34,674 nt of DNA from contig JAEELO010000029.1 of the NCBI GenBank assembly GCA_016282705.1, positions 1 through 34,674 of the forward strand, written 5' to 3'. This DNA is from Candidatus Gastranaerophilales bacterium (GTDB taxonomy: Bacteria; Cyanobacteriota; Vampirovibrionia; Gastranaerophilales; Gastranaerophilaceae). This document shows, piece by piece, positions 7,090 through 34,671 of this stretch (position 1 is its first letter; every line of letters begins with the position of its first letter). The position numbers and the translations under genes were made by a program. A model generated the notes under the pieces. The model did not search any database. It worked only from the letters and a program-made list of their open reading frames with translations, and was not told where the DNA came from.

Positions 7090-8118
7090 ATGTTTTTTAA
7101 TTTGTTTAACAGAGATAAAGAATATATTAGCTGTGAATACCTTGAATATGGGATTCATTTCCGCGTAGACGGCCTTTTTCATTGTGCAAGCCACTTTCAT
7201 TCAAACGAAAACAATATTCCCGTTACGAATAATACCGGTAATATTGACACTGACTTTAAAAATTTTTTAAAAGCAAAACAAAGAGACAAAAAGTCTTTTC
7301 GTAAGGGCGAAATAATTAAGAGATGCCAAAATTGTTACTTTTTAAAAAAGCAATCTTGGCAAGCGTCTAATAAAATTAAAGAAATAGGAATAACCGCAAA
7401 CAGAAGATGCAACAGTAAATGCCGATACTGTACAAGTTCATCAGAAACTGATATTTTAAATAAATTGCCCGATTTACCCATATATGATTTTTGTAAAAAA
7501 TTATATGACAAAAATATGATAGCTAAAGACTGCGAAATTCAGTTTGGAGGGGGAGAACCGACTCTTCATTTTGAATTTAATAAAATGATAGATTTATGTA
7601 TTAAAGCAACTGATGATGAAACAAGAATTTGCGTTTTTACTAACGGTATAAACTATAGCTCAGCAATTGAGAAATTAATTAAATTAAACAGAGCAAACAT
7701 AGTAATATCTACGGATTCAGGTAATAGTGAATTATATAAAAAAATTAAAAATGTTGATAAGTTTAATCAAGTTAAAGAAAATGTTAAAAGATATTGTGAT
7801 GCTCAAGATTGTACAACAGAAAACAGACAAGTTGCATTAAAATACATTATTATTCCAGAGATAAATGACAACTATGAAAATATAACAGAATTTCTGAACT
7901 TTGCACAAGAAGTCAATTGCCACGCAATAAGAACAGAGGTAGAAGGCGAATATTATAAAAAGAATATTGATAATAAAGATGCAATAAAACACCTTTTAAA
8001 GATGATGAAATTTATGAAAATAAATGCGGAAAATATGGGATTTCAATTTTTCTTTTTCTGTACTTCGGACAGTTTATACAACAAATATAAAGACATTTAC
8101 AATCAAATAGCTATTTAA
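7090..8118 (+). CDS. radical SAM protein with N-terminal SPASM-like cysteine domain (paralogue 1)
   Basis: 342 residues, ATG preceded by AAGGAAT. The radical SAM CxxxCxxC motif is C107-C111-C114 and the SAM-binding GGGEPT is at 153-158. Upstream lies a four-Cys domain: C15 (YISC-YLEYG), C32, C79 and C82 (RCQNCYFL). All seven cysteines have the same spacing as in the two paralogues near 33 kb, with the whole numbered set offset by nine residues. The pattern resembles the SPASM/twitch auxiliary Fe-S domain, but it precedes the core rather than following it. Here the second cysteine is CA, not CC, and the Gly-rich loop after it is missing, so this is the most divergent copy. Substrate unknown; no precursor peptide is visible nearby. 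Probably cotranscribed with rph; its 3' end overlaps the converging cyclo-ligase gene by 8 bases. Confidence 0.88.
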   Translation: MFFNLFNRDKEYISCEYLEYGIHFRVDGLFHCASHFHSNENNIPVTNNTGNIDTDFKNFLKAKQRDKKSFRKGEIIKRCQNCYFLKKQSWQASNKIKEIGITANRRCNSKCRYCTSSSETDILNKLPDLPIYDFCKKLYDKNMIAKDCEIQFGGGEPTLHFEFNKMIDLCIKATDDETRICVFTNGINYSSAIEKLIKLNRANIVISTDSGNSELYKKIKNVDKFNQVKENVKRYCDAQDCTTENRQVALKYIIIPEINDNYENITEFLNFAQEVNCHAIRTEVEGEYYKKNIDNKDAIKHLLKMMKFMKINAENMGFQFFFFCTSDSLYNKYKDIYNQIAI

Positions 8119-11815: not shown

Positions 11816-13684
11816 ATGAATTTAATTTCATTGAAGCTTGATTTCTTCAATTACTTGGAGAAAGAAGGAAAAACTGACGGTTTAAAAGAAGATGAGATAT
11901 TATCTTCCGACTTAAGCATTTTTATGTATTCCTCAGAATTTGAAAAATTCATGGATGAAAAAGGCAGTGAATATAATCTACCTGAAGATTTTTCAGGAAG
12001 CATAAGTGATATATTAGAAATGGAATTTGATGAGGAAACCGGTGAATTTAAAACAGGTGAAGATGATGAAAATTCCTTAATGGGTGGATTATTAAACGAA
12101 TTATTTAAAAATGAAGATGTATTAAAAGCAACAGATATAGACCACGACGGTAAAATAAGCCAAGATGAAATGACTAATTTCATTCAATTGGCAAATCAAT
12201 ATGATAAAGATGACAAAAACTTCACATTAAAAGATATTTTCGGGGCAGTAAAAGGTATTGAAGACGGAACATTCAATCCGTCATACGGTATTATTCCTAC
12301 TGAATTATCAGACCCGGCTGCGCTTGCAATGCAGCAAGCATTGTCAACAAATGCAGCAAATAATACAGATGGTGGGAATACAACAAATAGTACGAGCGGA
12401 ACAACAGAACCAAAGAACAATTCATTCAACACACAAAATTCCGGACCTGCCGCTACTCCGACTCCATCTAAAGGTGCAACTGAAGAATCAGAAAATAAAG
12501 CAAAAGAAATCGAAGAAATTGACAGACAAATTGCAGAAAAGACAAATGAAATAAATTCATTAACCTCCGAAAAAGCAAATGCATACTCAGCAAATTCAGA
12601 ATATCAAACATTAACTAATGATTTAAAAACAGTTAATGATACAATTGCGAAATCCAGCAGTAATATAACAACACTTGAAACTGATTTACATAAAACACAA
12701 ACAGATATATCAGCAAAACAAGCAGAACTTGATAACTTGCAAGATCCTAAAGTATTTACGGAATACAAAGAACAAATCGATGCAAAAAGAAATGAATTAA
12801 AATCCGCAATTGAAAGTTTAAAAACAAAAGAAAGCGAAACTCAACAAAAGATTGAAACAGAAAAACAAACAATAACAACAAATGAACAAAAGCAAGCAAC
12901 ATTAGAAGGACAAATTAAAGAATTTGAACAAAACAATCCAAATGATCAAATTAAAGAAATAAACAGTAAAATTGAAACTTTAAAAAGTGACATTTCATCA
13001 TTGAAGGAGCAAAAACAACAGAAACAAACAGAAATCAAACAAACAAGAGATCAAGAAAAATCTGATGCGGAAGTATACGGAAAAGCAACTGCATACAGAC
13101 AAAGTGAATTTGTAAAATATATGATGGATTACGCAACAGACAGCGGTACAAGAAACAGATACGATAGTGCGAACCACGGAGGTGCTTGGTGCGCAATATT
13201 TACAAGTGAAGTAACAGAAAAATTATATGCAGAAGTAGCCAAAAGACTCGGAATGTCTACAAATCAATCGCAAGACTTAGGAGGAAACCAAATGGCTATG
13301 CACGCTACAGCTTGGGGTAAAATGGTACAAAATGCATTATCTAATGCAGGAATTAAACAACAAGCAACAATTAATATATCACATATGACAGAACAGCAAA
13401 GAAAAGATGCTGTAAGAAACGGCTTAATTTATCCTGGTATGACATTTGAATATGAAGAAGGCGGACATTATCATACCGGATTCATTGAAAGTATTAATCC
13501 TGATTTAACTTGGAACACTATCGAAGGAAATTCTACCGGAGGTAAAACAGGTCAAAACAGAAGAGATGCAACTTACAGTAAACTTACCAGTGTAACAGAC
13601 TCAACATTAAAAACAATGTACTGGCTTGTACAAAGAGGAATTATAACGGCAGAAGAAGCAAATAGAAGATTATATGGGGCATAA
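11816..13684 (+). CDS. EF-hand / coiled-coil / CHAP-like peptidase protein, tandem copy 1
   Basis: 622 residues. Domains in order: a conserved helical N-terminal domain (1-165, beginning MNLISLKLDFFNYLE) with one canonical EF-hand loop DIDHDGKISQDE at 107-118 (D107, D109, D111, S115, E118); a Thr/Asn/Pro-rich linker (166-222); a coiled coil (about 225-412); and a C-terminal domain (415-622) resembling CHAP or NlpC/P60 cysteine peptidases. Candidate catalytic residues are C459 in GGAWCAIFTSE, H553 in HYHTGFIE, and E570 or N572 in TIEGNSTGG. CHAP enzymes cleave peptidoglycan peptide or amide bonds. No signal peptide or membrane segment is visible, so the export route is unknown. The start is a non-AGGAGG site after GGGGATAAAAAGGG. 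A paralogue follows 130 bases downstream. Confidence 0.8.
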   Translation: MNLISLKLDFFNYLEKEGKTDGLKEDEILSSDLSIFMYSSEFEKFMDEKGSEYNLPEDFSGSISDILEMEFDEETGEFKTGEDDENSLMGGLLNELFKNEDVLKATDIDHDGKISQDEMTNFIQLANQYDKDDKNFTLKDIFGAVKGIEDGTFNPSYGIIPTELSDPAALAMQQALSTNAANNTDGGNTTNSTSGTTEPKNNSFNTQNSGPAATPTPSKGATEESENKAKEIEEIDRQIAEKTNEINSLTSEKANAYSANSEYQTLTNDLKTVNDTIAKSSSNITTLETDLHKTQTDISAKQAELDNLQDPKVFTEYKEQIDAKRNELKSAIESLKTKESETQQKIETEKQTITTNEQKQATLEGQIKEFEQNNPNDQIKEINSKIETLKSDISSLKEQKQQKQTEIKQTRDQEKSDAEVYGKATAYRQSEFVKYMMDYATDSGTRNRYDSANHGGAWCAIFTSEVTEKLYAEVAKRLGMSTNQSQDLGGNQMAMHATAWGKMVQNALSNAGIKQQATINISHMTEQQRKDAVRNGLIYPGMTFEYEEGGHYHTGFIESINPDLTWNTIEGNSTGGKTGQNRRDATYSKLTSVTDSTLKTMYWLVQRGIITAEEANRRLYGA

Positions 13685-13814: not shown

Positions 13815-15680
13815 ATGAATTTGATTACTCTAAAGATAGACTTTTATAACTATCTTGAGCAGGAAGGAAAACTTGATGAACAAAAAGCAGAAGATTTATT
13901 GTCTTCTGATATTAGCATATTCATGTATTCTGCTGAATTTCAAAAATTTATAGATGAAAAAGGTTCTGATTATAATATACCCGAAGATTTTTCAGGTTCA
14001 TACACTGATCTTATTGAAATGACTTTTGATACTGAAACATGTCAATTTATACCAAACGAGTACACGGGTAATAAAAGTGATGAAAATCAAGATATAAAAA
14101 TGCTTGAAATGTTAAATGACTTGTTCAAGCAAGATGAAGTTAAAGATGCTTTCGATATAGATCATGACGAAAAAATAAGCAATGACGAAATGAAGAACTT
14201 CCTTCAACTTGCAAATCAATTTGATAATGACAAAGAAAACTTTTCACTTGAAGACATATTTAAAACAATGGAAGGAATAAAAGACGGAACATTTAACCCT
14301 GCATATGGTATTATTCCGAAAGAACTTCAAGGTGAAGATGCAATAAAATTACAAGAACAATTGTCTGAAGAAGCTGCAGAAAAAGTAGGCGGAGACAGCA
14401 GCAAAGTAACCTCAAGTAATAATGTGGGCGGAGGTTCAAGTACGACACCTGACAGAAAAGGTGCGAATGATGATTCTAAATTGGAGTCAGGGAAAATTTC
14501 TGATATTGATAAAGAAATTGAAAGACTGAACAACGAGATTATAAGCAAAAATAATGATAAAGCAAAATTAAAAGCTAATGATAAAGATTACCAGTCAAAA
14601 GTAACCGAATTAAATTCTGTATTATCTGATATTTCAAAAAATGAAGCAAATATAACAAATTTTGAACAATCATTACATGAAACTCAAACTTCAATATCTT
14701 CTTTGACTGCGGAATTAAATAATCTTCAAGATCCTGTTTTGTTTACGGAATACAAAGATGATATTGAAAATAAGAGAAAAGAACTTCAAGCTGAAATAGA
14801 AAAGAAAAATAATGAAGCTGCAAAACTTCAAGAAAATATAGAAAAAGAACAAAAAGCATTAAAAGAAAACAAAGATAAACAAAAAGAACTTGAAGGCATT
14901 ATAGAAAGCTATGAAAAGAATGAACCAAATTCGGAAATAGATAAAATCAATCAAGAAATAACCGCACTTAAAGAACAAATTACAAAATTAGAAAATGATA
15001 AAAAAGAAAAGAAAGAAAATGATTTAAGTAAAGTCAGAAATAGAGAAATATCTGATGCAAAAGTATACGGTGAAGCTAAAGCATACAGAGAAAGCAATGA
15101 ATTCACAAGATGGATGATGGATTACGCAACCAGCAAAGAAACAAGAAACAGATATGATAATACTAACTTTGGTGGAGCTTGGTGTGCAATATTTACAAGC
15201 GAAGTAACAGAAAAATTATATGCAGAAGTAGCAAAAAGACTTGGAATTTCAACAAATAAATCCCAAGGAATGAATGGTAATCAAGTTGCAATGCACGCAG
15301 TTGCTTGGGGAAATCTATATCAAAAAGATTTTGATGCAATTGGTTTGAAACAAAAAGCAGCAATTAATGTAACTAATATGACAGAACAACAGAGAAAAGA
15401 TGCCGTAAGAAACGGTTTAATATATCCCGGTATGACATTTGAATATGAAGCAAACGGCGGTTATCATACAGGATTCATAGAAAGTATAAATGAAGATTTA
15501 ACTTGGAATACAATAGAAGGCAACTCTACCGGAGGTAAAACCGGAGTTAACGTAAGAGATGCTTCAAATCAAAGATTAAGCAGTGCGACAGATACTACTT
15601 TAAAATGTATGTACTGGCTTGTACGCTCAGGCAAAATAACAGCAGCCGAAGCAAATAAACGTTTGTATAATGCAGCATAA
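13815..15680 (+). CDS. EF-hand-like / coiled-coil / CHAP-like peptidase protein, tandem copy 2
   Basis: 621 residues, collinear with copy 1. The N terminus (MNLITLKIDFYNYLE) and C-terminal peptidase-like domain are highly similar; linker and coiled coil (about 225-410) have diverged in sequence but kept length. The EF-hand loop at 114-125 is DIDHDEKISNDE: the Gly normally needed at position 6 for the loop turn is Glu119, so calcium affinity may be lost or altered. Candidate catalytic residues are C457 (GGAWCAIF), H551 (YHTGFIE) and E568/N570 (TIEGNS). No signal peptide. ATG follows AAGAGAAG. Conserved catalytic core with a diverged calcium site suggests duplication followed by regulatory specialisation. 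Confidence 0.8.
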   Translation: MNLITLKIDFYNYLEQEGKLDEQKAEDLLSSDISIFMYSAEFQKFIDEKGSDYNIPEDFSGSYTDLIEMTFDTETCQFIPNEYTGNKSDENQDIKMLEMLNDLFKQDEVKDAFDIDHDEKISNDEMKNFLQLANQFDNDKENFSLEDIFKTMEGIKDGTFNPAYGIIPKELQGEDAIKLQEQLSEEAAEKVGGDSSKVTSSNNVGGGSSTTPDRKGANDDSKLESGKISDIDKEIERLNNEIISKNNDKAKLKANDKDYQSKVTELNSVLSDISKNEANITNFEQSLHETQTSISSLTAELNNLQDPVLFTEYKDDIENKRKELQAEIEKKNNEAAKLQENIEKEQKALKENKDKQKELEGIIESYEKNEPNSEIDKINQEITALKEQITKLENDKKEKKENDLSKVRNREISDAKVYGEAKAYRESNEFTRWMMDYATSKETRNRYDNTNFGGAWCAIFTSEVTEKLYAEVAKRLGISTNKSQGMNGNQVAMHAVAWGNLYQKDFDAIGLKQKAAINVTNMTEQQRKDAVRNGLIYPGMTFEYEANGGYHTGFIESINEDLTWNTIEGNSTGGKTGVNVRDASNQRLSSATDTTLKCMYWLVRSGKITAAEANKRLYNAA

Positions 15681-16294: not shown

Positions 16295-17179
16295 ATGATA
16301 AGCGTACAAAAAACCATACAGCAAAATGAACTAAAATTAGCTGTTTTTATAGTTGTTATTTCAGTAATAATATTATTTTTAGGATATCTTATATCTGATA
16401 TTTTTAATCTCGGAATGATAGGTATATTTATATCATTTATTATAGCTGCAGGTGCAAATTTTATTTCATACTTCTTTTCTAGAGATATTGTACTAAAGTC
16501 ACAGCATGCAATACCGATGAGAGATGCTGAATTCCCTGAATACTGCAACATGGTTAGGGGAATGTGCGAAAAAAATAATATAATTATGCCGGACTTATAC
16601 TACATTAAAACAAATGCCCTGAATGCTTTTGCAACCGGCAGAGATCAAAAACACGCAGCTGTTGTTATAACAGAAGGTATGTTAAGAACAACACCGTTAG
16701 ATGAAATATCTGGCGTAATTGGTCATGAATTATCTCATATTGTTCATAAAGATATTATGATAACAAGCTTTATAGCAATACTAATAGGCTATGTAACTAT
16801 ACTTGCAGGTGCTTTAAGAACAGCATCAATGTACAGAACATCAGGAAGCAGACAAAACAACGGATTACTAATGTTAATAGGCCTTGCTTGTTCAATCTTG
16901 GTGCCGATTGCAGGCATGATTATTAAAATGGCAGTTTCTCGTTCAAGAGAATATATGGCAGATGCCACAGGCGGAGTAATATGCGGAGATCCGAAGCTTC
17001 TGGCTAAAGCATTATACAGAATAAGCCATGACGGTCAAGAAATGCCAATGGCGAATACTGCAACAGCACCGTTATACATTTCAAATCCATTTAAAGGAAA
17101 TTCTTTTGCCAATCTTTTTTCAACACACCCGGATATAAATGACAGAATCAGAAGATTAAATGAAATGAGATTGGTTTAA
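16295..17179 (+). CDS. htpX: HtpX-like M48 membrane zinc metalloprotease
   Basis: 294 residues from ATG at 16295, which is preceded by TTAGGGAGAA; an upstream GTG at 16250 is in frame but has no binding site and would add 15 residues not expected in HtpX. Two N-terminal membrane segments (about 15-35 and 40-60) are followed by the protease domain: zinc-binding HELSH at 144-148 and the third ligand E219 in SRSREYMADATGG. Two further hydrophobic stretches (158-172, 191-213) lie between, as in HtpX. The family degrades damaged inner-membrane proteins with the active site facing the cytoplasm. It ends with FSTHPDINDRIRRL, a common M48 C-terminal motif. Its stop codon overlaps the next start (TAATG). 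Confidence 0.93.
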   Translation: MISVQKTIQQNELKLAVFIVVISVIILFLGYLISDIFNLGMIGIFISFIIAAGANFISYFFSRDIVLKSQHAIPMRDAEFPEYCNMVRGMCEKNNIIMPDLYYIKTNALNAFATGRDQKHAAVVITEGMLRTTPLDEISGVIGHELSHIVHKDIMITSFIAILIGYVTILAGALRTASMYRTSGSRQNNGLLMLIGLACSILVPIAGMIIKMAVSRSREYMADATGGVICGDPKLLAKALYRISHDGQEMPMANTATAPLYISNPFKGNSFANLFSTHPDINDRIRRLNEMRLV

Positions 17180-18645
17180 TGTCAAAAAAGCTCATTATTT
17201 CTATTATATGTACTATAATTTATGCATTTATAACATTAATTGCGGTATTGCATCACGAATCATGGGCTGATGAAGTACAAGTATGGCAATTGTGCAGATA
17301 TCTTTCTATATCGGAATTAATACAACATCTTCAAAATGAAGGGCATCCTTCTTTATTTTATTTACTAATTTTTCCGCTTACAAAAATATCTTCAAATATA
17401 ATGTATATGCAGCTGCTTTGCTGGATTTCGATGGTATTTGCGGTTTTTATAATGTTTTTCAAGTCACCATTTGGTAATTTCACAAAATTTGCTATAGTAA
17501 CAAGTGCAGGATTTCTTTATTTTCTGCCGGTTATGGCAAGAAATTATGCAATTATTCCGGTCCTTGTATTTTTGGCCGCCATATTATATCTAAAGCAGAA
17601 AGAACATCCGATATTGTACGGAACAACTATTGCACTGATTGCTAATACTCACGCAATAATGTTTGGGTTTGCATTTATTCTTGCTTTATTATTCTTTTAT
17701 GACAACATATTCATTCCTTGGAAAAATAAAGAAGAAAAAATTAAAAATTCTATTATTATTTCAACTGCAATCATTATTACAGGATTATCAACACTTATAT
17801 TGCAATTATATAATACAACATCAAGTAATCAATTTATAACATTTGATGATGAATCAATTTATACAAAGGCTGCGCACGTTTTTTCTCATTTCTTTTTTAA
17901 TACATATAATTCAAATTTACTCGGATTTAATTTAATAGATATAACATTTATATACATTTTAGCCGCTTTATTCTTGGGATTTTTTGTTATTTTGTTCATA
18001 AATAATAAACGTATGTTTCTTATTTCAACTTTTGCAATAGGCTTTCAATTTGCTATATATATTCTTGTTTATTGGAAACTTGTTTATGCAACCAGAATTT
18101 TTACATCATTCGTGATTTTGATTTTCTGTATGTGGATACTTATTCTAATGACTGATAATGAAAAGCAAAAGAAAATTGCGAACATATTAATTTCTATATT
18201 TTTTATTCTTACTATATATAATTCGCTGCATTCATATATACTTGATTTAAAAAATAATTATTCCAGTGCTAAATCAACAGCAGAATATATAGTCAAGCAT
18301 TTTGAAAAAAATAAATCTCTGTTCTTAATAGATATAGAGTCTTGCCATATTGCATTAGCATATTATTTGGACATAAAGGGATATGAATTAATATCAATAA
18401 TGAGAGAAAAACCGCTAAAATATGTAGTTTGGGATAATCAATCAGGTATAGCACTGGATGAAGCAAATTGGAAAAAATGCGGAAAATATTTTTCACAATT
18501 ATATCCTGATTTAAACATATATGTAATAAGGTCAAGAAGTAATTTTTACGACTACTCATTAACGGAAAATTTTGAACCTGTATACATTTCCGCTGACTGT
18601 ATGGACTTCTATGAAAAATATATAATATATAAATACATTAAATAG
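17179..18645 (+). CDS. GT-C fold membrane glycosyltransferase-like protein
   Basis: 488 residues with about ten hydrophobic segments spread through residues 5-360 and a soluble C-terminal part. The first extracytoplasmic loop has HHESWADEVQVW with D31-E32, the acidic pair typical of GT-C enzymes using polyprenyl-phosphate sugars, followed by NEGHPSLFY (53-61). GT-C proteins transfer sugars on the periplasmic face to lipids or proteins. The donor and acceptor cannot be told from sequence. ATG overlaps the htpX stop by one base, so translation is coupled. Its 3' end overlaps a small minus-strand ORF by 8 bases. Confidence 0.75.
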   Translation: MSKKLIISIICTIIYAFITLIAVLHHESWADEVQVWQLCRYLSISELIQHLQNEGHPSLFYLLIFPLTKISSNIMYMQLLCWISMVFAVFIMFFKSPFGNFTKFAIVTSAGFLYFLPVMARNYAIIPVLVFLAAILYLKQKEHPILYGTTIALIANTHAIMFGFAFILALLFFYDNIFIPWKNKEEKIKNSIIISTAIIITGLSTLILQLYNTTSSNQFITFDDESIYTKAAHVFSHFFFNTYNSNLLGFNLIDITFIYILAALFLGFFVILFINNKRMFLISTFAIGFQFAIYILVYWKLVYATRIFTSFVILIFCMWILILMTDNEKQKKIANILISIFFILTIYNSLHSYILDLKNNYSSAKSTAEYIVKHFEKNKSLFLIDIESCHIALAYYLDIKGYELISIMREKPLKYVVWDNQSGIALDEANWKKCGKYFSQLYPDLNIYVIRSRSNFYDYSLTENFEPVYISADCMDFYEKYIIYKYIK

Positions 18646-18892
18646 TTTTATCTCTTTTCATATATGGTTTTATAAACTCACCAACAGAATAATATTCAAC
18701 TTTTAAGTCTGTTTGTTCTGCTTCATCTTCAAAATAATCAAATAAATCAGCAAGAATATCCATATATTTATTACCTTCTTTTGCAAAAAACTTGGATTCT
18801 ATATCCATAATTACAACATTCACACCTGTTTGTTTTGATTTTATAAGGAATGATTTTATTTGTTCTATATTTGTATTAATCGGAGGTATCAA
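18638..18892 (-). CDS. short ORF of unknown function, possibly a 5'-truncated gene remnant
   Basis: The frame is open from an in-frame stop near 18971 down to the stop at 18638, about 110 codons, but contains no ATG. The only plausible starts are TTG codons without a binding site, and the one at 18892 gives 84 residues. The sequence looks protein-like, not random: VNVVIMDIESKFF then KYMDILADLFDYFEDEAE and VEYYSVGEFIKPYMK, a hydrophobic strand followed by acidic helix. It sits just downstream of the 3' end of tRNA-Ser, a common place for insertion and deletion debris. I do not recognise a family. It may be a decayed gene, so coding status is uncertain. Confidence 0.35.
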   Translation of the reverse strand: MIPPINTNIEQIKSFLIKSKQTGVNVVIMDIESKFFAKEGNKYMDILADLFDYFEDEAEQTDLKVEYYSVGEFIKPYMKRDKTI

Positions 18893-18994
18893 AATATATT
18901 TTGTACGAACGGCAATTTTATATAAATTTATAAGTATAATATGGAGGAAAGGGAACCAACTTACCTTTATTTATTTGGAAATTAAAGTATAATT

Positions 18995-19081
18995 CGGAGA
19001 AGGGGGGATTCGAACCCCCGGTGGAGTTGCCCCCACACAAACGTTCCAGGTTTGCACCTTAAACCACTCGGACACCTCTCC
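18995..19081 (-). tRNA. tRNA-Ser (anticodon GGA)
   Basis: 87 bases. On the minus strand the acceptor stem GGAGAGG pairs with CTTCTCC (one G-T), discriminator G. Anticodon stem-loop is CAAAC-CTGGAAC-GTTTG, anticodon GGA, reading UCC and UCU. A long class II variable arm (around GTGGGGGCAACTCCAC) is diagnostic of serine tRNA; the T arm is GGGGG-TTCGAAT-CCCCC. CCA is not encoded, so it must be added by the nucleotidyltransferase. Confidence 0.97.
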
Positions 19082-19116
19082 ATTGATTTACTTTCTATTT
19101 ATAACAGACAAAAACT

Positions 19117-32579: not shown

Positions 32580-33545
32580 TTAAATTTGGTTTTTACCCTC
32601 TTTTAAACCTCTTGCTCTGTCATAAAGTTCTACCTTCATATTTAATGAATGTGCTTTATCTATAACATAATTAACCAAATCAAGGTAATAATCGGATATT
32701 GTAGCTCTGTTTGTTTTATACCAAACATCTTCAATATCTAAAGCAAGCCATTTACCGCCTACATTAATAACAGAATTAATCCAAGAATCAATCTCTTTCC
32801 TGTTATCGTTTACATTCGGAATAATAATATATTTGGAAGTCATCAAGCCAAAACTGTCAGTATTAGCATCTGCATACTTTTTCATGTTTTCCAAAACTTT
32901 TTTATAAGCATTAACACGCTTAATTTTTTGATAAGTTTTATCACAACCCGCATCAATTGAAATAACAACGTTTAAAACACCTTTTCTGATTGCTTCTTCA
33001 ATTGCAGGAGAGAATTTAATACCTGATGAATGTATTCTCATGTTTTTAAAATTATTAGCAGTAAGCAGCTTAATCAAATCTTCAAATTCGGGTGCTACAG
33101 TAGGTTCTCCCCCTCCAAATGATACTTCTCCGCCGGGGCGTAAAATTTTTCGTTCTATCATGTCTTTAACAACCGGAACAGCATCATAAGGTTTAATTTT
33201 GTCGAAAATCTTTTTATTTTGAACCTCATAACAATACGTACATCTGCTGTTACAAAGAACCCAATAATTAAATTGGAGGAAGTTTATATAATCTTCATCA
33301 TCCCATTCTTTTTCTTCAAGAAAAACACAACCCAAACAATTAGGTGTAAGATTTCCTTTTTTGTGTTCTTCACGAAATTTACGTTTAAACTCAAACAGTT
33401 TATCCCAGTCTATCGGTTCACCGTTATAAACATTCTGTATGGTAATTCTTCCCCCGCCTGTATGGCACGTAAAACAACAAGTTTCAAGTCTTGTATGTTC
33501 AAAGTCCATACCATGCTCTATATATCTGCAACTAAGGTATTTCAC
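32580..33545 (-). CDS. radical SAM protein with N-terminal SPASM-like cysteine domain (paralogue 2)
   Basis: 321 residues if started at GTG 33545, which follows GGGAT and makes the N terminus (MKYLSCRYIEHG) collinear with paralogue 3; an alternative TTG at 33557 adds four residues. N-terminal Cys domain: C6, C23/C24 (ETCCFTCH), C70 and C73 (NCLGC), with GGGRITIQN and NGEPIDWDKLFEFKRKFREE between, the latter resembling the W-x-x-x-R segment of SPASM domains. Radical SAM cysteines are C98, C102 and C105 (NSRCTYC), GGGEPT at 144-149. Cleaves SAM to a 5'-deoxyadenosyl radical; substrate unknown. An additional C27 lies nearby. Followed by AT-rich dyads that may end transcription. Divergent from paralogue 3. 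Confidence 0.88.
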   Translation of the reverse strand: MKYLSCRYIEHGMDFEHTRLETCCFTCHTGGGRITIQNVYNGEPIDWDKLFEFKRKFREEHKKGNLTPNCLGCVFLEEKEWDDEDYINFLQFNYWVLCNSRCTYCYEVQNKKIFDKIKPYDAVPVVKDMIERKILRPGGEVSFGGGEPTVAPEFEDLIKLLTANNFKNMRIHSSGIKFSPAIEEAIRKGVLNVVISIDAGCDKTYQKIKRVNAYKKVLENMKKYADANTDSFGLMTSKYIIIPNVNDNRKEIDSWINSVINVGGKWLALDIEDVWYKTNRATISDYYLDLVNYVIDKAHSLNMKVELYDRARGLKEGKNQI

Positions 33546-33610
33546 TTGATATCCCAATCTCTACTCTTATGTATAAATTACCATTTTCAATAATAATAGT
33601 CAAGAATGCA

Positions 33611-33629
33611 AAGAAATGCTAAATTTCTT
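33611..33629. promoter_or_regulatory. inverted repeat overlapping the paralogue 3 promoter
   Basis: aagaaat (33611-33617) and atttctt (33623-33629) flank five bases in the 145-base gap between two divergent radical SAM genes. The right arm touches the -35 box of the rightward promoter. It could be a binding site controlling both genes. Confidence 0.3.
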
Positions 33630-33656
33630 GTCTTTGGATTTTATTATATGTATAAT
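33628..33656 (+). promoter_or_regulatory. promoter for radical SAM paralogue 3
   Basis: TTGTCT (33628-33633), exactly 17 bases, and perfect TATAAT (33651-33656), 34 bases before the TTG start at 33691. Confidence 0.55.
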
Positions 33657-33690
33657 AACAATGTTTTTAGATAATAAATAGGAATATGTT

Positions 33691-34671
33691 TTGAAATACG
33701 TAAGTTGCATACATTTAGAGCATGGTATAACATTTTTTTCAAATTCGGTTCAAATATGCTGTATAAGTTCACATCCGGGTGGCGGAAGAATTATGCAGGT
33801 AGAAAATTATAAAGGCGAGCCGATTGATTGGGATAAGTTTTTTGAAAACAGAAACAAGTTAAGAGAGGGTGCAAGAAACGGTAATATCCCAGAAAAATGT
33901 GAAGGATGTTATTATCTGAAAGAACAGGAATGGAATCCCGAAAATTACATTGATGAAGTATTAATCGGTCATTTTACTCATTGCAATTGCAATTGTATAT
34001 ATTGCTATACGGAAGCTGATAAGAAATTTTTTAATGCAAATAAAACATATAACATCTATCCTGTTATGAAAGATATGATTGACAGAGGCATCCTTTCAAA
34101 ACAAGCAACAATAACTTTTGGAGGCGGAGAACCTACTATACTTCAAGAATTTGAAGAACTTATAAATTTATTACTGGATTACGATGTATATAATATCAGA
34201 ATACACTCTGACGGAATAAAATATTCTCCGGGTATTGAAAGAGGATTAAGGCTGGGGAAAATTACACTTATTACATCTGTTGATTCAAGTTCTCCTAAAA
34301 TATACGAAAGAATCAAACAAGTACCCTGTCATGATAAAGTATGGGCAAATCTTAAGAAATATGCCGATGCAAAAAACGGACTAATAAGAACAAAATATGT
34401 ATTAATTCCCGGAATAAATGACAGCCTTTCCGAAATTAAAAATTGGCTTCAAAAAACATATGATGCAGGAATAAGAAATATAGCATTTGATATTGAAGAT
34501 AACTGGTTTAAAGAACACAGAGAAAATATTCCTCAATATATATATGTAATATTCGATTTCGTATTTGATTGTTATAAACAATACAACATAGACAGCTGCG
34601 AATTATATGAAAGAGCATATAATTTAAAAGTAGACAGAGAAAACAGGCAAAAATCTCTATCTGAAACATAG
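33691..34671 (+). CDS. radical SAM protein with N-terminal SPASM-like cysteine domain (paralogue 3)
   Basis: 326 residues, complete, TTG start with AGGAA eight bases upstream. It is collinear with paralogue 2: MKYVSCIHLEHG, C6, C23/C24 (QICCISSH), Gly-rich HPGGGRI, GEPIDWDKFFENRNKLREG (42-60), C70 and C73 (KCEGC). Radical SAM cysteines C98, C102 and C105 (HCNCNCIYC; C100 is extra), GGGEPT at 144-149. Later, VDSSSPKIYERIKQ and KYVLIPGINDS follow the usual strand order of the SAM barrel. All seven cysteines match paralogues 1 and 2 in spacing. Substrate unknown. The stop is three bases before the window edge, so any downstream partner gene is out of view. Confidence 0.9.
   Translation: MKYVSCIHLEHGITFFSNSVQICCISSHPGGGRIMQVENYKGEPIDWDKFFENRNKLREGARNGNIPEKCEGCYYLKEQEWNPENYIDEVLIGHFTHCNCNCIYCYTEADKKFFNANKTYNIYPVMKDMIDRGILSKQATITFGGGEPTILQEFEELINLLLDYDVYNIRIHSDGIKYSPGIERGLRLGKITLITSVDSSSPKIYERIKQVPCHDKVWANLKKYADAKNGLIRTKYVLIPGINDSLSEIKNWLQKTYDAGIRNIAFDIEDNWFKEHRENIPQYIYVIFDFVFDCYKQYNIDSCELYERAYNLKVDRENRQKSLSET

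Follow-up and report, generated by a model that had tools for sequence, protein, structure and literature searches.

SPASM and twitch domains are defined in a review as C-terminal extensions (PMC9012708). The enzyme BtrN of butirosin biosynthesis fits this definition, its twitch standing behind the radical SAM core, and its four-cysteine twitch cluster, which accompanies the two-electron oxidation of an aminocyclitol, is thought to accept an electron (PMC9012708). The peptide maturases SuiB, SkfB and CteB likewise have a C-terminal SPASM domain, in addition to a peptide-binding N domain. The reverse order has also been catalogued: the NCBIfam family NF033640 (N_Twi_rSAM) comprises an N-terminal C-x16/17-C ... 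CxxC twitch followed by the radical SAM core, and its true members L034 and L035, from a genome of the same phylum as the DNA studied here, show a Pfam SPASM domain at the N terminus, before the core. L034 (genome G120, contig C83) is a chain of at least 1,197 residues in which a sulfotransferase, the SPASM domain, the radical SAM core, a further region and the start of a class III aminotransferase follow one another. Proteins of vibriophages (K566, QD01, and Q6WHP4 of KVP40) place C-x16/17-C ... CxxC before CX3CX2C, as read directly in K566 and QD01. Neither "N-terminal twitch" (with radical SAM) nor "N-terminal SPASM" occurs as a phrase in the open-access literature searched.

The window analysed here is a complete contig of 34,674 bases from a Candidatus Gastranaerophilales bacterium, whose own assembly amounts to 2.2 Mb. 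It holds the following features of a radical SAM family with a predicted auxiliary domain in front of the core.

7090 to 8118, plus strand: copy A, a solitary and diverged paralogue with a putative N-terminal twitch (ORF, regular-expression match)
7402 to 7893, plus strand: radical SAM core of copy A (Pfam PF04055)
18641 to 18952, minus strand: C-terminal remnant (about 100 residues) of a further family copy (sequence comparison)
32580 to 33545, minus strand: copy B, divergent neighbour of copy C with the same architecture (ORF, orthologue comparison)
32787 to 33260, minus strand: radical SAM core of copy B (Pfam)
33691 to 34671, plus strand: copy C, radical SAM protein of 326 residues with a putative N-terminal twitch, TTG start (ORF, AlphaFold2)
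33691 to 33975, plus strand: N-terminal twitch-like domain of copy C, residues 1-95, with Cys 6, 23, 70 and 73 (alignment A4, hhalign, AlphaFold2)
33970 to 34443, plus strand: radical SAM core of copy C, PF04055, residues 94-251 (Pfam)

An earlier note on this DNA had reported three open reading frames sharing a seven-cysteine pattern, and the pattern is real. The regular expression C-x16-C-x46-C-x2-C-x24-C-x3-C-x2-C matches exactly in all three copies, spanning residues 15-114 of copy A, 10-109 of copy B (numbered from TTG 33557) and 6-105 of copy C, and GGGEPT begins 39 residues after the last cysteine in each, as had been stated. The CC doublet and the GEPIDWDK motif, which had been added to the shared pattern, are present in copies B and C but not in copy A, which reads CA and lacks GEPIDW. 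The note was silent on the strand of copy B, which is the minus strand; the start of this copy was placed at GTG 33545, the residue at which orthologues begin, and its frame is open back to TTG 33557. In copy C the core motifs are CX3CX2C at residues 98/102/105, the ligand motif of the SAM-cleaving cluster, and GGGEPT at residue 144. The three window copies score 52.4, 57.3 and 71.6 bits against PF04055 (gathering score 29.5), and the core is the only Pfam match above cut-off in each, apart from a marginal Fer4_12 match within the core of copy B. Copy A, which shares 27% identity with copy C, is flanked by rph and a gene resembling that for 5-formyltetrahydrofolate cyclo-ligase. The remnant adjoins a tRNA-Ser gene (18994-19082) and the gene of a large membrane protein (17179-18645).

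The order of domains proposed for these proteins holds in copy C, where the auxiliary domain (residues 1-95) precedes the core (94-251) and no C-terminal SPASM domain follows, which departs from the C-terminal placement in the published definition (PMC9012708). As a novelty, the permuted layout does not stand, because NF033640 and Pfam-detectable N-terminal-SPASM enzymes already exist, some of the latter in the same genome. By score, the family is outside NF033640: the window proteins reach 24.6-35.4 bits against a cut-off of 170 bits and align over the core only, no genome of the set of relatives has a protein above this cut-off, and of the dozens of NCBIfam matches to the window proteins, all weak and centred on the core, not one approaches its cut-off. 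The own genome encodes two adjacent Pfam-detectable N-terminal-SPASM radical SAM proteins (L031), and such enzymes also occur in other cyanobacteria and in vibriophages. Like the window family, the N-terminal-SPASM proteins (L009, L010 and L031/L075/L076) have the auxiliary domain before the core and are found in the same islands, but they carry a GNIxExxFDEIWN motif of their own that the window family is without. In a tree of the core domains, which has no outgroup and in which five labels were mis-assigned by regular expression, the two classes form separate groups; because of the missing outgroup, one or two origins of the N-terminal placement are not readable from it. Across 39 genomes of the genus, SPASM counts track the copy number of the window family (Spearman 0.71), and the two classes seem to have been gained and lost together.

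What we did not expect is the expansion of the family and its islands, more than the permutation. The own genome contains 21 full-length copies and the C-terminal remnant, and the window holds three of the 21. Among 39 genomes of the same genus, each of about 2 Mb, copy number ranges from 0 to 43 with a median of 27, and three genomes have none. Genomes G007, G256 and G318, in which the family is absent, have one SPASM domain each. In a phylum-wide sample outside the genus, with at most seven candidates scored per genome, only ten genomes have copies above the threshold, one or two apiece. Most of the nearest named relatives belong to Candidatus Gastranaerophilales, and several of these come from deer or rumen. 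The cluster at the end of the window takes the form, in sibling genomes, of a four-gene cassette, B (minus), C, D and E (all plus), with C, D and E nearly overlapping. The window contig ends at 34674, and in the own genome D and E lie on contig C117; the window is therefore cut in mid-cassette. The contamination estimate of the assembly is 7.6%; nevertheless, the cassette recurs in independent assemblies. Up to 43 copies in a genome of about 2 Mb is unusual for a family of radical enzymes. None of the curated models is matched above its cut-off; the family, like its expansion and probable role in glycan modification, appears not to have been described before.

The genomic context of relatives offers a lead to function. 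In other genera, which have few copies, one family member is fused behind a family 2 glycosyltransferase (GT2; L064), and another in front of a hexapeptide acyltransferase, beside a capsule-type PGA_cap gene (L043, by Pfam); by reading, L045 and L046 have the same layout. Neighbours in other genera include PS_pyruv_trans (polysaccharide pyruvyl transferase), RgpF, GT2 and a methyltransferase-hexapeptide fusion, and GT9-like genes are also among the neighbour families of relatives. Two loci encode radical SAM protein and MATE-family transporter in a single chain (L040:1-1484, minus strand; L042:2483-3961, plus strand); at L042, which belongs to the genus, a GT2 gene and a heptosyltransferase-like gene lie upstream of the fusion. 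A family copy of the own genome (L017) is directly followed by an unfused MATE gene. In genomes G005 and G217, about half of 38 copies are gathered in one island (G005 contig C4, 46-79 kb, L084-L086; G217 contig C1, 198-243 kb, L087-L089). The islands contain about 20 radical SAM genes of the two classes with an N-terminal auxiliary domain, accompanied by GDP-mannose 4,6-dehydratase (GDP_Man_Dehyd), DegT aminotransferase, GT2 and SGNH-like genes, genes for large membrane proteins and TPR genes, and, in G217, a hexapeptide transferase (Hexapep). The islands may be no more than a glycan locus in which family genes happen to sit. Copies A, B and C lie beside housekeeping genes; among 61 neighbours of own-genome copies, tallied by Pfam, helicase domains and radical SAM were the only families to recur, and glycan-like genes were no commoner than among 55 control genes. 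The own genome is unclosed, and islands may be missing from its assembly.

The family may carry out radical modification of surface-glycan sugars, a reading that rests on the context of relatives and that we regard as evenly poised between right and wrong. It is favoured over the modification of ribosomal peptides because the fusion partners in relatives include a glycosyltransferase, a hexapeptide acyltransferase and MATE, and the islands hold sugar genes.

The earlier note had hinted at ribosomal peptide substrates, and the strongest competing explanation keeps the same architecture with ribosomal peptides or proteins as substrates, dozens of paralogues acting in trans on as many protein targets. 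Peptide maturases are common among SPASM enzymes, the scattered solitary copies would fit trans-acting modifiers, and maturases of the SuiB, SkfB and CteB type, with which the family shares the radical SAM core fold, rank among the core's best structural matches. These matches are generic, however, with BlsE, PFL-AE and NifB ranking alike: VIA-align of the full-length model against radical SAM enzymes gave Z scores of 12-17, and assigning a function from this comparison was rejected, many radical SAM enzymes falling within 1-2 Z units. No precursor peptide was found for the window family. In the two islands, where gaps between genes are mostly below 150 bp, there was no recurring short, precursor-like ORF besides TPR proteins, although precursors may be distant, and Pfam scans of the window proteins and relatives returned no match of the PqqD/RRE type. 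Together with the fusions of relatives, which point to glycans, this makes peptide or protein substrates rather doubtful.

A more basic question is whether the N-terminal domain is a twitch at all. The claim that residues 1 to about 95 are homologous to SPASM/twitch domains is borne out by profile-profile comparison. Aligned by hhalign, A4 (28 N-terminal domains) and a set of SPASM domains, mostly from the own genome, gave a score of 26.1 (E 1.7e-4), above all 100 column shuffles (maximum 14.8) and above shuffles in which the cysteines were held fixed (maximum 17.9). Since the latter also stay below the observed score, the similarity does not come from the cysteine columns alone. When the vibriophage N-twitch sequences were added, the probability reached 91% (E 9.1e-7) with the four cysteines in register. 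In searches with existing SPASM/twitch profiles, some A4 members weakly match NF033640 (9e-4), TIGR04085 (1.5e-3) and PF13186 (0.025), but the window copies go undetected, single-sequence Pfam and NCBIfam models finding no SPASM domain in the window proteins and Pfam SPASM none in the 21 own-genome copies even at E 10.

AlphaFold2 predicts copy C, with high confidence, as an N-terminal domain plus a radical SAM barrel (full length, alignment A2, pLDDT 94.5, pTM 0.91; isolated N-terminal domain, pLDDT 89.9). The predicted secondary structure of the N-terminal domain runs from a cysteine through a short helix, a hairpin, the CC, a loop, a strand and a long helix (47-62) to the CxxC. The order cysteine, hairpin, CC, helix and CxxC, and its position, are common to the N-terminal domains of the family and N_Twi members. 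The isolated 95-residue domain found no match in the PDB with Foldseek or VIA-align, being very small for such searches. This missing fold match and the failure of Pfam SPASM to detect window members would suit a structural metal site, for example zinc, or a convergent, twitch-like Fe-S fold of other ancestry; we consider this unlikely, as the profile similarity extends beyond the cysteine columns and grows stronger with intermediates, and the shared elements stand at the same position and in the same order as in N_Twi members. The domain is thus very probably homologous to SPASM/twitch domains and, judging from sequence, best described as a divergent twitch (half-SPASM) in front of the core, with its four cysteines as putative cluster ligands.

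All seven cysteines are invariant in an alignment of 58 relatives with identities down to 21%, which is far beyond chance. They account for seven of only 11 invariant columns, the others being Y104, G146, D198 and N243. Loss of conservation at C6, C23, C70 or C73, which would have told against a two-cluster enzyme, is seen in none of the 58. The last three cysteines were correctly read as the radical SAM motif: CX3CX2C is invariant throughout, and PF04055 lies above its gathering score. To call the spacing a fixed ruler was too strong, because it varies outside CxxC and CX3CX2C (x15-21, x36-49 and x24-34), the exact pattern being kept in 6 of the 21 own-genome copies and 19 of the 58 relatives. 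The GGE-type SAM-binding motif is GGGEPT in copies A, B and C and is altered in some paralogues, to CGDP in the D paralogue, GGN in L030 and GGD in L024. Cassette gene D (L022:34-1032; L048:4043-5059) keeps CX3CX2C with CGDP in place of GGEP, and D orthologues evolve faster than those of B, C and E, on which purifying selection is strong (dN 0.06-0.18, dS often saturated). That many copies are catalytically degenerate scaffolds or regulators maintained by recent duplication, as the lost GGE motifs and the remnant at 18641-18952 might suggest, is quite improbable given the low dN/dS of B, C and E and the invariance of CX3CX2C and the four N-terminal cysteines in all 58 sequences. The family is real and strongly conserved, in a rearranged layout that is already catalogued.

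We thus return to an expanded, lineage-specific family with a putative N-terminal twitch, a predicted four-cysteine Fe-S cluster and a (beta/alpha) core, possibly acting on surface glycans. The core cluster would cleave SAM to a 5'-deoxyadenosyl radical, which would abstract hydrogen from the substrate. The auxiliary cluster, which would be ligated entirely by cysteine, might take up or return an electron, as proposed for BtrN, which also has a single four-cysteine auxiliary cluster and a carbohydrate-type substrate of the kind suggested here; the division of labour would be the same, with the cluster delivered from the N-terminal side. Going by the context of relatives, substrates could be cell-surface glycan sugars, or nucleotide- or lipid-linked precursors of these, on which each paralogue would perform one dehydrogenation, epimerisation or similar change, the products being assembled by glycosyltransferases and exported by MATE-type flippases. 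More tentatively, chemically unusual surface glycans could be the product of radical chemistry in one gut and rumen genus of Gastranaerophilales, whose N-terminal-twitch enzymes number up to about 40 per genome, with about 20 in a single island; each paralogue would then contribute one modification. Copy number points to a large unexplored radical chemistry, possibly glycan-directed, in gut and rumen bacteria. The domain in front of the core, its invariant putative ligands and the fusions to glycosyltransferase, acyltransferase and flippase offer material to probe the role of an auxiliary cluster after its position in the chain has changed.

The vibriophage proteins have low sequence identity to the window family. 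Matches in a viral structure library cover the whole length of the model (324 columns, TM 0.66), unlike those in the PDB, and KVP40 provides a full-length fold match. Vibrio phage K566 (L090, 255 kb) carries four radical SAM genes among glycosyltransferase-like genes, all with an N-terminal C-x16/17-C and CxxC, and the glycosyltransferase neighbours of this cluster comprise GT8 and a weak GT4-type match. A phage-borne origin of the window family was considered and rejected, there being no viral contig and a single partial phage match; for P0001, no full-length phage match was obtained.

In the G217 island, one radical SAM protein (L088:900-1865, plus strand) begins with a Tat-type signal (MKRRDF...), and its counterpart in G005 has the signal on a separate short ORF. 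From its sequence, this enzyme appears to be exported, which would be odd. Elsewhere in the window, two tandem genes (11816-13684 and 13815-15680, plus strand) encode proteins of about 620 residues in which an EF-hand-like DxDxDG motif, a coiled coil and a cysteine-peptidase-like C-terminal domain were recognized by eye.
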